A stretch of 64,000 nucleotides of DNA from Bifidobacterium aquikefiri (GTDB lineage Bacteria > Actinomycetota > Actinomycetes > Actinomycetales > Bifidobacteriaceae): the NCBI RefSeq assembly GCF_002259795.1, contig NZ_MWXA01000005.1:434001-498000 (forward strand). Direction: 5' to 3'. Numbering within the stretch: position 1 is the stretch's first letter; each line of letters begins with the position of its first letter. The position numbers were made by a program, and so were the translations under genes. The notes under the pieces were generated by a model. It was not told the origin of the DNA, did no database searches, and saw only the letters and a program-made list of their open reading frames with translations. Positions 18,736 to 25,104 of this stretch are shown in pieces.

Positions 18736-19425
18736 TTAGAGATTGTATTCCTTCGCAATCACGTTCCACATGGCGTCGGCGGCGTTCTCAACGGTGTCGT
18801 TGACGATGACGACATCGAATTCACCCTCACTGGCAAGCTCGACTCGTGCAGTGGCAAGGCGCTTCGTGCGCTGCTCTTCGTTTTCAGTGCCACGAGAAGC
18901 AAGGCGGCGAATCAGATCGTCAAAGCTTGGAGGGGCCAAAAATACATATACAACATCAAGATTGAGCTCTTTCGCGCGTTGGCGAACACGATGTGCACCC
19001 TGCAAGTCAATCTCCAGGATCGTTGGAATCCCTTGCTTGAGATGATCGAGCACTGGTTGCAGTGGTGTTCCGTAATGCGCCATGTTATGTACCAGTGCAG
19101 TTTCAAGGAATTCACCCCGTTGCTCCATGGCAGCAAATTCTTCTTCAGAAACAAACCAGTAGTTGATGCCATTACGTTCGCCGGGACGAGAATCACGAGT
19201 CGTCGCAGAAACCGAAACCCATACTTCTGGATGCCTTGATCGAAGTTTTGCCTCAACCGTACCTTTGCCTACAGCGGTCGGACCGGTAAGAACGATGAGT
19301 CGTTGATGACCTTGCTGCGGCTCTTTATGATTCATCACTGCATTGTCTGCAGCGGCTGGAGAACTTGCAGACACTTGTGCAGAAGAATCCTTGGATTGTC
19401 GGATTACGGATTCACTCACCGTCAC
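18736..19425 (-). CDS. gmk: Guanylate kinase
   Basis: 229 residues. Phosphorylates GMP to GDP. The GTG at 19425 is the start, with GGGGAAG 5-6 bases upstream. An unusual ~40-residue Ser/Ala-rich N-terminal extension precedes the P-loop GPTAVGKGT (~47-55). Other conserved parts are SATTRDSRPGE (GMP binding) and the EFLETALVHNMAHYGT region. It follows pyrF by 2 bases, so nucleotide genes form one operon here. Confidence 0.93.
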   Translation of the reverse strand: MTVSESVIRQSKDSSAQVSASSPAAADNAVMNHKEPQQGHQRLIVLTGPTAVGKGTVEAKLRSRHPEVWVSVSATTRDSRPGERNGINYWFVSEEEFAAMEQRGEFLETALVHNMAHYGTPLQPVLDHLKQGIPTILEIDLQGAHRVRQRAKELNLDVVYVFLAPPSFDDLIRRLASRGTENEEQRTKRLATARVELASEGEFDVVIVNDTVENAADAMWNVIAKEYNL

Positions 19426-19427
19426 GA

Positions 19428-20453
19428 CTACTTCCCCTCGTTCATAGATTGAGTTGTTGCTGACGAAGCTGTATGCACATTTGTCTTACTCTTTTTTGCA
19501 GTGACATCGTGTTTCACGGCATCTCCTGCAAAGTTATCACTTGCAGTTTCCTTCGTCGCCTCAGACAAGGCTTGGCGCACATCCAGTGCAATGCTTTCCG
19601 TCGCCTGTGCGAGCTTATCAATCTGAGGTCCATGAGTTGCAATCGAACGGGATACAGTTACCAGAACATTACCTTGTGTGCCGGCAAATACCGTCTTCAG
19701 ATCATGAGCCTCGGCACCCTGCCATCCATATCCTGGTGAAAGAATGGGTCCGGTGAATTTCGATGGATCTACACCACCGGTAGTGATCCACTGGCCAATC
19801 GTTGCTCCGATGATCAGTCCAACAGAGCCCATGCCATCCATGCTCTGATTGAATTTCTGAGCTGTTCCGGCTATGCTGTAGGCCACTGTCTTGCCTTTGT
19901 ACGAACCACTTTGCCTGATCGCAGACTGCAGACTTGTACCCTCACTATTGGATGTGAGCGATGCAATGAACACCCCACGGCCATAACTCAGGGCTTCGTC
20001 GGTGAGATTGTTGAGCGAACGGGCGCCATAGTAGGGAAGCAGGGTTATGGCATCCGCCTTCAGCGGCGCATTTGGCTTGAAATAGGCATCGGCAATGGCT
20101 GAAATAGTAGTCGAAAGCCCGCCGCGAAGGCAATCGACAATCGTAATGATTCCCATCTGACGGGCGGCATAGAGCACCCGCTCAAGCGCGGCATAACCTT
20201 TTGAACCGTATCGTTCGAACATGGGTGTCTGGAATTTCACTGCCGCAGCTCGGCCATGGGCCGCCTGAAGCATGCGCATGGAAAACATCTCGGCACCATC
20301 GGCATCCACCTGATACCCCCACTCACTGAGAATCTTTCGGTGAGGATCTATGCCGACGCAAAGCGGCCCGAATTTTGACATTGAAGTGCTTAATCGCAGA
20401 CCAAAATCTGATCTCTGTGCCTTAATCTCTTCTTCACGGGTCGCCTTTGCCAT
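19428..20453 (-). CDS. pyrF: PyrF homologue (OMP decarboxylase family) with altered active-site motif
   Basis: 341 residues, type-2 PyrF family. The family decarboxylates OMP to UMP. Conserved: GIDPH (~35-39), AVKFQ with the first Lys (Lys73), LLPYYG, and the phosphate-binding SPGYGWQGA. The hallmark DAKRGD segment, which supplies the catalytic Asp-Lys-Asp, reads DCLRGG at 107-112. The catalytic Lys is therefore Leu109 and the second Asp is Gly112. I rechecked this on the nucleotides near 20120-20140. The C-terminal ~60 residues form a Lys/Ala/Thr-rich tail. The gene lies between carB and gmk, fitting pyrimidine synthesis, but activity is in doubt. Confidence 0.85.
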   Translation of the reverse strand: MAKATREEEIKAQRSDFGLRLSTSMSKFGPLCVGIDPHRKILSEWGYQVDADGAEMFSMRMLQAAHGRAAAVKFQTPMFERYGSKGYAALERVLYAARQMGIITIVDCLRGGLSTTISAIADAYFKPNAPLKADAITLLPYYGARSLNNLTDEALSYGRGVFIASLTSNSEGTSLQSAIRQSGSYKGKTVAYSIAGTAQKFNQSMDGMGSVGLIIGATIGQWITTGGVDPSKFTGPILSPGYGWQGAEAHDLKTVFAGTQGNVLVTVSRSIATHGPQIDKLAQATESIALDVRQALSEATKETASDNFAGDAVKHDVTAKKSKTNVHTASSATTQSMNEGK

Positions 20454-20462
20454 CAGATATCC

Positions 20463-23400
20463 TTATCTTTCAAGTTCGTGTATCTGCTCAGCACGTTCCT
20501 GAATACTTTCGATCTGGTAGTCATTCTTCCGTACGGCCTCGATAGCCATCAAAGCGGCAGAAAACTCCGTCATGGTGGTGAAGTGCGGCAAATCCGCTGC
20601 TATTGCCGCAGCTCGAATCGAGTAGCCATCAGATCGTGAACCCTTGGAATTTGGGGTATTGAGAATCATGTTGATGGTTCCGTCTTCTATCAGATCAACG
20701 ACATTCTTCTCGGTGGAATCGCTCACACTGGCTGTTGATTGCGTTGAATCTGGAACAGCGGGCTGGGGTGTGTCGACGCGTGTCCCAAGCTTGGCGACAA
20801 CATGAGCCTGAAGACCATATCTGCGCAAGACCGAAGCGGTTCCCTCCGTTGCGTACAGATTAAAACCAAATTCGTGCAGACGTTGTGCCATCAAAGGCAG
20901 TTGTCTCTTATCGCTGTCGTTGACGGAGAGGAACACGTTGCCACTCGTAACCAGTCCCCCGGCGTATGCTGCCAACTGACTCTTGGCGAATGCATGGGGG
21001 AAGTCTCTATCGAAACCCATGACCTCGCCAGTCGAACGCATCTCTGGCCCAAGGATGATGTCAACCGTACGACCAACCTTGGTTCTGAAGCGCTTGAACG
21101 GAAGCACCGACTCCTTGACTGCAACCGGCTGACCGCGACGAATCATGCCACCGTCACCAACGGGAAGCAGCAGGCCGTTCTTGCGCTGGTCCTCAATGGT
21201 TTCACCCGTCATGATGCGTGCTGCCGCCTTGGCAAGGGCAGTTCCCGTCGCCTTGGAAGCAAACGGAACTGTTCTGGAAGCGCGTGGATTGGCTTCGATG
21301 ACATACAAAGTGTTGGCCATGTATGCATACTGAACATTGATGAGTCCACGAACGCCACAACCCTGGGCAATTGCCAAGGTAGCCTTGCGCAAACGTTCCA
21401 TCTGATCGTCCGAGAGTGTGCTAGGCGGCAGCGTGCAAGCTGCATCACCCGAATGGACACCCGCCTCCTCGACATGTTCCATAATCCCACCGATGTAAAG
21501 ATCCGAACCATCGTAGATGGCATCGACATCAATCTCAATGGCATCCTGCAAGAACTTGTCTATAAGCAAGGGGGAAGGGAGTCTTCCGGACACCACCGTG
21601 TCGGCCTTCGCCTCATCAAGCGCCCTGTTGACGTAAGTCTTGAGCTGTGCATCGTCATAGACGATTTCCATCCCTCTACCACCCAACACGTAGGATGGAC
21701 GCACCAGCACAGGATAACCAATGTTATGTGCAGCCTCCTCTGCCTCTTCGTACGATAACGCTGTGCCGTACCGTGGGGCATTCAATCCTTCGCGCTTGAG
21801 AACCTCACCAAAGAGCTGTCGGTTTTCAGCCAAGTCGATAGCCTCTGGCGAAGTGCCGAGAATCGTCACCCCGGCAGCTTTGAGTCTTGCTGCAAGCGAA
21901 AGAGGTGTCTGTCCACCCAGTTGTACGATGACGCCCTTGATGGGACCCATCTTCTTTTCTGCCGTATAGACTTCGAGAACATCTTCGAAAGTCAATGGCT
22001 CAAAATAGAGGCGATCCGACATGTCGTAATCCGTCGAAACCGTCTCTGGATTGCAGTTGATCATGATCGTGTCGTACTTCTTGCCAAGCTCTTGAACGGC
22101 ATGCACACAGGTGTAGTCGAATTCGATGCCCTGACCGATCCGATTGGGACCGGAACCAAGAATGATTACGGCTTCGCGATCTCTTGGCCTGATCTCGGTC
22201 TCATCGGCATAACATGAATAGTAATACGGAGTAACCGCGTCAAATTCCGCAGCACAGGTGTCAACGGTCTTATATACCGGTCGCAGTCCATAATTCCAGC
22301 GAAGCTCACGAACGGCATTCTCGCCTTCATCTCCGAGCTTTCTCAAATGAGCGATCTGCAAGTCGCTTAAGCCTGATTGCTTGGCCTTCCTGAGCAGTTG
22401 AGCTCCAAGACTTTCAGCCGCCTGAACCTCCATTGCCACATCATTCATTTCCTTGATCTGTTCAAGGAACCAACGGTCAATCTTGGTGGCTGCATAGATC
22501 TGCTCCACACTTGCTCCGCCCCACATGGCGCGCTGCAACTGAAGGTAACGGTGCTCGGTAGGAGTGCTCATATCGTGCAGCAACTGCTGAATCTCGGCCT
22601 GAGACGGCTTGTCGCCGTCCCATGAGAAGTTCATGTGACGCTTGTCAATGGATCGAAGAGCCTTGCCCAGGGATTCGCGGAAGTTTCCTGCCAAAGCCAT
22701 CGCCTCGCCCACCGACTTCATCGAAGTGGTGAGCGTCGTATCGGCATTCGGGAATTTCTCGAAGGTAAAACGAGGAATCTTCGTCACAACATAATCGATG
22801 GTCGGCTCAAAACTCGCCGGAGTTGATTGCGTGATGTCATTTTGAATTTCATCAAGCGTATACCCCAGAGCCAGCTTGGTCGCTATCTTCGCGATGGGGA
22901 AACCGGTTGCCTTTGATGCCAGAGCGGATGAACGCGACACACGTGGGTTCATTTCAATGACGATCAGACGACCGGTCTGTGGTTCTACGGCGAACTGAAT
23001 GTTGCAACCGCCTGTGTCTACACCAACGCCACGAATGATCTTGATACCAACATCACGCATCTTCTGATATTCGCGATCCGTGAGTGTGAGCATGGGCGCC
23101 ACAGTCGTCGAATCGCCGGTGTGCACACCAACAGGATCAACGTTTTCAATCGGGCAGATGACCACGACATTGTCATTCTTGTCTCGCATCAGCTCAAGCT
23201 CGTATTCTTTCCAACCTTCGATGCCTTCCTCAAGAAGGATCTCATGCGTCGGAGAATAATGCATGCCTGCTCCGGCAATGCGATGGAGTTCCTCAACATT
23301 GTGTGCAATGCCGGAACCTAGACCACCCATGGTGAAGCTTGGACGAACCACCAATGGATAGCCAAGATCATCCGCGGCGGCCTCGGCATCTTCCATGCTG

Positions 23401-23849
23401 TGTGCAATCAGCGATCGGGCGGATTCTGCACCCGCCTTTTCGACGACCTTCTTGAAAAGATCTCGGTCTTCACCACGATCGATCGCATCGAGCGAGGCAC
23501 CGATAAGCTCAACGTTATATTTCTTGAGGATCCCAGCCTCTCCGAGCGCCATCGCGGCGTTCAAAGCGGTCTGCCCACCCAACGTCGGCAAGAGTGCATC
23601 AGGTTTTTCCTTGGCAATGATTTTTTCAAGAATGGCTGTATCGATAGGTTCGATATAGGTGGCATCGGCCATTTCAGGATCAGTCATAATCGTTGCAGGA
23701 TTCGAGTTGACCAGAATCACGCGGATTCCCTCTTCGCGCAAAACACGGCATGCCTGCGTTCCTGAATAGTCAAACTCTGCGGCCTGACCAATGACGATTG
23801 GTCCTGAGCCAATGACCATAACCGAATGAATATCGGAACGCTTAGGCAT
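20463..23849 (-). CDS. carB: Carbamoyl-phosphate synthase large subunit
   Basis: 1128 residues from the ATG at 23849, which overlaps the carA end by 8 bases (ATGCCTAA); GGGGAAG precedes it. Makes carbamoyl phosphate for pyrimidines and arginine from ammonia, bicarbonate and two ATP. Two ATP-grasp halves are seen: [17 protein letters not shown] near residue 15 and [17 protein letters not shown] around 570. The repeated VIVLGGQT-type and [18 protein letters not shown] / [18 protein letters not shown] motifs follow. A C-terminal MGS-like allosteric domain follows. It contains a ~30-residue Ser/Thr/Pro insert ([20 protein letters not shown]) that looks disordered. Confidence 0.97.
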
Positions 23850-25104
23850 TGATCTTCCCCTCTGTCTCTTCCTGTTCTTGAGCATGTTGAGAATCCTGAG
23901 ATGATTTCATCAGATTGATGAAACGATCAAACAGGTATGTTGCATCGTGTGGGCCGGCAGATGCCTCCGGATGATATTGAACTGAGAAAGCTGGAATATC
24001 AAGGCATTGCAACCCTTCAACCACGTCGTCGTTCAGCCCGATATGCGATACCTTTACCTTGCCGAAATGCCCATTGTCGAATGGTGATGAAATATCGGTG
24101 CCCAGTGGGGCATCAACTGCAAAACCGTGATTCTGCGAAGTTATCGAAACTTTGTCGGTATTGACATCCTTGACCGGCTGGTTGATGCCTCGATGACCAA
24201 ATTTGAGCTTGTACGTTCCAAATCCAAGCGCGCGCCCTAACAACTGATTACCGAGGCAGATGCCAAAGAATGGGTATCCCCTGTCAAGAACCTCGCGCAG
24301 GAGCGCGACCTCCTTATGAGCTGTGGCCGGATCGCCAGGACCGTTCGAGAAAAAGACACCATCGGGACTCAAAGCTTGCAATTCTTCGAATGTGGTGTGT
24401 TGTGGAAGAATATGCACTTCACATCCACGTTCTGAGAGACGTTGTGGCGTCATGCTCTTGATTCCGAAATCCAATGCCGCGACCTTGAACAGCGGTTTCT
24501 TGCCTGCAAACGCTCCACGAGGAGCAATGATCTTTTCCTGAGCGGTACTGACCTCATCCATAAGATGAGCGCCAGCCATCTGTGGCGTCTCCTCGACGAT
24601 CGTACGCAAGGTTCCCGTGCTTGCAAGCTCACCGTTGCCCTGTTTCAGGGCATTTCCTGAGAAGATCCCTGCACGCATCACACCCGCAGAACGAAGATGT
24701 CGCACTAATTTTCTTGTATCGATTCCACTGATTCCGACGATGCCCTGACTTATCAGATCATCCTGCAAGCTACCAGTTGCTCGCCAGTTACTCACATTCG
24801 GGCTTGGTTCACGGACAACATATCCGGCAACCCATATCTTGGAAGACTCGTTGTCTTCCCCATTGACACCGGTGTTTCCAATATGTGGAAATGTTTGTAT
24901 CAATATTTGGCGGTCATAACTTGGATCGGTTATCGTCTCCTGATACCCTGTCATGCCTGTAGTAAAAACAATCTCGGCAGTTGTCTGCCCTAATGCGCCA
25001 AAAGGCTTGCCCACATACACTTGTCCATCCTCGAGAACGAGGATTGCATCATCTGGGGAAAAGCTCTCAACTGTTGTGGCGTCGGAATCGTACAAGTTTA
25101 CCAA
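23842..25104 (-). CDS. carA: Carbamoyl-phosphate synthase small subunit
   Basis: About 420 residues. Class I glutaminase that feeds ammonia to CarB. The catalytic Cys is in [12 protein letters not shown], with His and Glu in [13 protein letters not shown]. The N-terminal CPSase domain ([12 protein letters not shown]-like, [10 protein letters not shown]) is intact. No ATG fits the N-terminus. TTG at 25104 or 25095 is the likely start, with GGGGG just upstream; the 25095 codon has the better spacing. A short acidic, Gln-rich tail ([15 protein letters not shown]) ends the protein. Confidence 0.94.

Follow-up and report, generated by a model that had tools for sequence, protein, structure and literature searches.

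The pyrF-like gene and its neighbourhood

The window, that is the whole stretch of 64,000 nucleotides of Bifidobacterium aquikefiri DNA that was analysed, carries on its minus strand an open reading frame of 341 amino acids (19428..20453), which encodes a homologue of OMP decarboxylase (PyrF) that has lost the catalytic lysine and the second aspartate of the D-x-K-x-x-D segment. This protein and its counterparts with the same loss are called PyrF-like here, and homologues with the full motif are called complete PyrF. Nine bases before the gene ends carB, for the large subunit of carbamoyl phosphate synthetase (20463..23885, minus strand), preceded by carA for the small subunit (23842..25104, minus strand); both names are presumptive ones, given on the basis of the sequences. 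On the other side the guanylate kinase gene gmk (18736..19425, minus strand) has its start codon 2 bases past the stop codon of the pyrF-like gene, and it is the only guanylate kinase gene of the genome over the curated cut-off. No RNA element was found between 18000 and 28000 at Rfam gathering scores. A previous reading of the DNA, made from the sequence only, had placed the gene within a pyrimidine operon, which is appropriate for the upstream side, where carA and carB precede it, but incomplete for the downstream side, since its fusion partner in some relatives, guanylate kinase, belongs to purine metabolism.

The homology of the window protein to the OMP decarboxylase barrel is evident from its scores against Pfam OMPdecase PF00215 (59.6 bits, cut-off 27) and NCBIfam TIGR02127 pyrF_sub2 (204.7 bits, equivalog cut-off 110.6). 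By sequence, the closest solved structure is 3v75, an OMP decarboxylase which we take to be the Streptomyces enzyme, with D-A-K-R-G-D at the columns of the catalytic segment. In the window protein this segment reads I-V-D107-C-L109-R-G-G112-L-S-T-T, and the altered motif, D107-C-L-R-G-G112, occupies positions 20118..20135 of the minus strand, with the codon CTT for Leu109 at 20127-20129 and GGG for Gly112 at 20118-20120. The replacement of Lys and Asp by Leu109 and Gly112 in a DCLRGG segment, as the sequence-only reading had it, is therefore exact, both in the open reading frame and in the codons.

Loss of the catalytic residues across the family

The window protein was searched against 189 genomes of the family Bifidobacteriaceae and all of the 123 strong homologues were fetched. 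Repeat loci of one gene (e.g. L001 and L153) and weak matches below 100 bits were dropped before counting; the weak matches that were checked were complete PyrF. The PyrF-like set comprises 119 of the 123, while the other 4, which possess the complete motif, were counted apart. PyrF-like proteins occur in 6 of the 27 genomes of the window's genus, in 95 of the 112 genomes of the large genus g5 and in 18 genomes of five other genera. Neither the catalytic Lys nor the second Asp is present in any of the 119, whereas Gly112 is invariant (119/119). Position 109 is variable (L 97, G 12, M 7, V 2, S 1) and position 110 is occupied by H (85), R (30) or Q (4). Aligning bifidobacterial homologues at the motif, a check that had been suggested beforehand, thus extends the loss to the whole set, and a sequencing error at the motif can be ruled out because the same change recurs in 119 of 119 copies. 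Among the best 80 of 173 named relatives, which include Bifidobacterium, Gardnerella and Galliscardovia species and B. psychraerophilum, Gly stands for the second Asp and Lys is missing in all 80.

The four homologues counted apart (L061-L064) come from four draft genomes of one genus of the family, g4. They share 39 to 42% identity with the window protein, have a complete DxKRGD motif and are of the actinobacterial PyrF type; neither carB nor gmk was found in the surrounding DNA examined, and no PyrF-like protein was seen in these four genomes. The D-x-K-x-x-D motif is also that of other enzymes of the suprafamily, hexulose-phosphate synthase and KGPDC, and the residues lost from the PyrF-like proteins are part of this shared motif.

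A complete PyrF in the same genomes

About 70 kb away on the same contig there is another OMP decarboxylase homologue, with the motif GDIKRGDIGST (locus L152, 3351-4442, minus strand). It stands in a row of open reading frames that presumably correspond to pyrB (end), pyrI, pyrC, pyrF, pyrK, pyrD and pyrE, the names other than pyrF being given from the look of the sequences. The second canonical pyrF, which the sequence-only reading had proposed to look for, therefore exists in a separate pyr cluster, and the idea of a genome relying on the altered gene for want of a complete one was rejected.

Across the family, a DNA pattern for the complete motif was found in 161 of 189 genomes. A second PyrF homologue accompanies the PyrF-like protein in 117 of 119 genomes, the two others being drafts that are 74% and 78% complete. 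Its Lys and second Asp were seen in 116 of the 119, in 114 by the DNA pattern and in addition in G084 and G152; in G172 the motif is cut by the end of a contig. As would be expected of a pseudoenzyme, the PyrF-like protein thus coexists with a homologue that is complete by sequence. The complete bifidobacterial PyrF matches its own family in split stretches and forms a very long branch with respect to other actinobacterial PyrF.

A predicted binding pocket, apparently kept but remodelled

Apart from the two lost groups, most of the predicted active site is present. Among the 119 PyrF-like proteins, D107 is kept in 119, K73 and N169 in 118 each, and D36, Q245 and R269 in 117 each. Lys73 (20235..20237, minus strand) is presumably the counterpart of the other active-site Lys of OMP decarboxylase. 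Gln245 of the SPGYGWQG stretch (19719..19721, minus strand) would lie, judging from OMP decarboxylase structures, in the phosphate-side loop, and Arg269 (19647..19649, minus strand) is the predicted phosphate-binding Arg. We take the Asp of GIDPH, the Gln of PGxGxQG and the Arg of VSR to be the ribose and phosphate contacts, and these predicted contacts (Asp36, Gln245 and Arg269) are the ones kept in 117 of 119. The persistence of Lys73, of GIDPH and of SPGYGWQG, which had been noticed in the single sequence, is thereby confirmed in nearly all of the 119.

Among the 117 regular members, i.e. excluding the divergent L065 and L066, there is no variation at D36, K73, D107, T116, N169, Q245 and R269, and P240 is found in 116. 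For these eight predicted pocket positions, which were chosen from what is known of OMP decarboxylases, invariance is thus found in 7 of 8, compared with 87 of 282 core columns overall (hypergeometric P 0.0013). Other columns differ consistently between the PyrF-like proteins and the PyrF of the order: P74 has become F, L142 Y, L164 A, A/G/C165 S, V/I242 Y and A244 W. Since several of the shifted columns presumably adjoin the pyrimidine and the phosphate loop, as placed from OMP decarboxylase structures, the pocket looks kept but remodelled, and with F74, Y142, S165, Y242 and W244 in it the ligand may therefore differ.

We also looked for residues that could stand in for the lost groups. No new invariant Lys or His was found in the 117 regular members. 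Two arginines are new in the PyrF-like proteins, namely Arg39, just after GIDPH (114 of 119, plus 2 Lys), and Arg180 (117 of 119). These could in principle supply a substituted charge, for which they are the best candidates, and they weigh against certainty that the protein is dead. Replacement of the lost Lys by another basic residue is nevertheless unlikely, given the lack of a new invariant Lys or His, even with Arg39 and Arg180 nearly fixed.

Selection on the PyrF-like protein

Close pairs of PyrF-like genes show strong purifying selection: among 24 hand-picked pairs, of which 3 were saturated, dN/dS ranges from 0 to 0.092 in the 21 with finite dS (2 of these have dS above 2). The two copies were compared over 15 genomes, in pairs that share genomes and are hence not independent. 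In 98 of 105 pairs the PyrF-like protein is the better conserved of the two (mean identity 0.726 versus 0.626 for complete PyrF), with the reservation that its rows were trimmed to the part aligning with the window protein, which favours it somewhat. Its conservation is close to that of guanylate kinase (0.726 versus 0.713) and below that of the C-terminal part of CarB (0.762 versus 0.848, 66 pairs). From the dN/dS values and the conservation above that of complete PyrF it follows that selection acts on the PyrF-like protein, so that loss of the catalytic residues and purifying selection, the combination that marks a pseudoenzyme, are found together.

Adjacency and fusion to guanylate kinase

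In all 119 genomes gmk lies downstream of the pyrF-like gene on the same strand. Where the two are not fused (96 cases), the distance from the stop codon to the kinase domain is at most 292 bases in 95 and 866 in the remaining one. In the other 23 of 119 a single open frame spans both genes, the linkers measuring 9 to 147 amino acids, and the fused form was also found in 20 of the best 80 of 173 named relatives; examples are B. goeldii, B. jacchi, B. reuteri, B. callitrichos, B. biavatii and B. aerophilum. All four fused proteins tried exceed the curated cut-offs of both TIGR02127 and TIGR03263. The frame is kept across linkers of very different length, which argues that the fusion is real as a predicted protein. 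On the tree all 23 fusions belong to a single fork of 26 rows, where a quick method counts two changes, so the fusion would have arisen in one or two events.

Origin of the gene and its losses

The position of the gene is older than the family. Nineteen other families of the order were sampled with 24 PyrF loci, all of which have the complete motif and, on the same strand, an upstream carB. In 22 of them gmk follows downstream on that strand, and the stretch examined at the other two contains no gmk; no pyrF-gmk fusion was found at the 24 loci, including these two without gmk in view. Judged from these gene orders, the carB-pyrF-gmk slot held by the PyrF-like gene is the ancestral actinobacterial arrangement, and for this reason adjacency alone is no proof of a new partnership.

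At three of the order loci (L249, L252 and L282), a gene for mIHF, the actinobacterial IHF (NF041260), is placed between pyrF and gmk; of six loci looked at, these three were scored, and all three are over the NF041260 cut-off. Within the family, mIHF is over the cut-off in 1 of 189 genomes, and loss of its gene may have brought pyrF and gmk closer together. In the consulted part of a study on Mycobacterium tuberculosis the mIHF gene is found upstream of gmk, and the title of that paper terms mIHF essential (PMC6155035).

A tree of 82 proteins, midpoint-rooted and with long branches flagged, places the 37 PyrF-like rows sampled from the 119 in one clade (support 100/99), grouped with the enzymes of the order and of g4, while 17 rows of complete bifidobacterial PyrF are split from this group by a long, fully supported branch. 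Two possibilities had been left by the sequence-only reading, a compensated site or a diverged paralogue with a new role. The second is favoured by the complete pyrF elsewhere, by the loss fixed throughout the family and by the lack of a new invariant Lys or His; however, the word paralogue does not apply, because from the grouping in the tree and the carB-pyrF-gmk position the PyrF-like protein is the old gene that lost residues, and not a side copy. The simplest story would be that an ancestor gained a distant PyrF and that the old gene then lost catalysis.

To see how far the PyrF-like form extends, an even sample of the order (149 genomes, 138 of them outside the family) was considered. 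Compared per genome, TIGR02127 matches were found in 132 of these 138 and the DNA pattern of the complete motif in 131; G216, positive for the first and negative for the second, reads DAKRGD. In a set of 396 genomes from the phylum, the strongest matches beyond the family reach 222 bits at 39 to 43% identity, the level of an ordinary PyrF. In the order and phylum samples, the phylum matches being mostly judged by score and not by motif, no PyrF-like protein was seen outside the family.

Within the window's genus, 21 genomes are devoid of the PyrF-like protein and all of them retain gmk; in 19 of the 21 carB precedes the kinase domain by 167 to 275 bases, and no PyrF-like sequence was found at the gmk loci of the 21. 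The kinase gene can evidently be kept without the PyrF-like protein, which is dispensable in some lineages. Two other members are strongly divergent, L065 (G163), with DTSRGG, and L066 (G120), with DCLQGG; they account for most of the exceptions among pocket residues, sit on long branches and are still open frames between carB and gmk. Their pockets are degenerate, with GIHPD or QINPH, a broken PGxGxQG loop and Arg269 replaced.

A probable pseudoenzyme and its possible role

Taken together, these data suggest that many bifidobacteria and relatives have put an enzyme that no longer works to another use. It is very probable that the PyrF-like protein is not an OMP decarboxylase, and we consider it rather likely that it keeps a nucleotide-binding role; that its partner is guanylate kinase has about an even chance. 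The reading that we prefer joins these elements, with a probability of roughly 0.45 on sequence grounds: an inherited PyrF would have lost catalysis and would now serve as a nucleotide-binding, non-catalytic partner of guanylate kinase. A vertically inherited actinobacterial OMP decarboxylase would have turned into a pseudoenzyme at the base of the Bifidobacteriaceae or close to it, its catalysis being lost after the activity had come to be provided by a second, distant PyrF encoded in the pyr operon. The protein would be unable to decarboxylate OMP and would still bind a nucleotide in the remodelled pocket, probably UMP, OMP or another pyrimidine 5'-monophosphate, or else a related ligand. 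As a sensing or stabilising subunit of guanylate kinase, it could tie the formation of GDP and GTP to the state of the pyrimidine pool. More specifically, and only tentatively, the dead OMP decarboxylase may be a nucleotide-sensing regulatory domain of guanylate kinase in the Bifidobacteriaceae, which would connect the pyrimidine pathway directly, by allostery, to the supply of purine nucleotides.

Other explanations have to be weighed against this one. The PyrF-like protein could be a purely structural pseudoenzyme, a ligand-free dimeric barrel that stabilises, oligomerises or localises guanylate kinase (or carbamoyl phosphate synthetase). The fusions in 23 of 119 and the constant gmk neighbour would suit this explanation, as would L065 and L066, which keep the gene while losing pocket residues; however, the invariance of seven of eight pocket positions in 117 of 117 proteins seems to go beyond the needs of a scaffold, and we regard a purely structural role as unlikely. 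We are similarly doubtful that the protein is an active enzyme of the suprafamily which catalyses a different reaction using Lys73, Asp107 and the remodelled pocket. Both residues are kept, and residues such as R39, Y47, Q63, F74, A164, S165, R180, Q181, G183 and T189 are fixed or nearly so in the PyrF-like proteins and not in the PyrF of the order, but position 109 varies freely and position 110 is H, R or Q, so that no new side chain has been fixed there, nor has a new invariant Lys or His appeared; moreover, all the suprafamily enzymes known to us use D-x-K-x-x-D.

Much less probable is a weak or back-up OMP decarboxylase, whose missing groups would come from other residues or from a mixed dimer with the complete PyrF. 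It is true that the NCBIfam equivalog cut-off is passed, that the rest of the pocket is kept and that Arg is nearly invariant at the new positions 39 and 180. However, both lost groups act directly in catalysis in the OMP decarboxylases that have been studied, neither was regained in any of the 119 genes, and nearly all of these genomes also carry a complete PyrF. Since each site of an OMP decarboxylase dimer takes its second Asp from the partner chain, a mixed dimer of PyrF-like protein and PyrF would be without any complete site. Lastly, a decaying relic, kept because its removal would disturb translation of gmk downstream, is hardly credible. That 19 genomes of the window's genus have carB and gmk without the gene between them, and that L065 and L066 sit on long branches, could be read in this way, but the low dN/dS and the conservation above that of complete PyrF largely refute decay, and the clean losses show that gmk can be retained without the gene. 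The preferred reading, a nucleotide-binding partner of guanylate kinase, would, if its regulatory form is true, provide a direct link between pyrimidine and purine supply that is testable in the natural fusion proteins.

Comparison with known systems and consequences for annotation

With PyrF of subfamily 2 (TIGR02127, 3v75) the window protein shares homology over the whole barrel (198 bits with a single sequence, 228 with a profile), and with the PyrF of other Actinomycetales the PyrF-like proteins share the carB-pyrF-gmk slot and the residues D36, K73, D107, Q245 and R269. They differ from 3v75-type PyrF in that all 119 lack the catalytic Lys and second Asp and that a complete PyrF is encoded elsewhere in the genome. 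A comparable situation is that of the inactive dihydroorotase homologue that holds aspartate transcarbamoylase together in Pseudomonas and others. By analogy, in both cases a pyrimidine enzyme would have lost catalysis, with an active copy elsewhere, and become associated with an enzyme of nucleotide metabolism; however, the enzyme and the partner are different, the fusion partner here being the purine enzyme guanylate kinase. An OMP decarboxylase domain within a two-domain fusion is also known from the fusions with orotate phosphoribosyltransferase (NF004034; 3qw4, 'UMP synthase'). Both domains of those fusions act, in consecutive steps, whereas the PyrF-like domain looks dead and its partner belongs to purine metabolism; the window protein scores 28.6 bits against the NF004034 cut-off of 656.

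In the open-licence full-text literature we found no description of the PyrF-like pseudoenzyme or of a pyrF-gmk fusion, nor, in the open-licence full text searched, of any pseudoenzyme in the OMP decarboxylase family. The portion consulted of a paper on Bifidobacterium mentions one PyrF (PMC12459721).

Two general reasons make the case of interest. OMP decarboxylase is the textbook case of extreme catalysis, and a pseudoenzyme form conserved across a family would show what its fold does without catalysis. Bifidobacteria, moreover, are well studied gut bacteria. As for annotation, all 17 PyrF-like proteins scored against TIGR02127, degenerate ones included, pass the equivalog cut-off of 110.6 (121 to 205 bits), and therefore automatic annotation gives a probably inactive protein the name OMP decarboxylase. 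The name assigned by that rule is probably wrong, and metabolic models may count two OMP decarboxylases where one exists.
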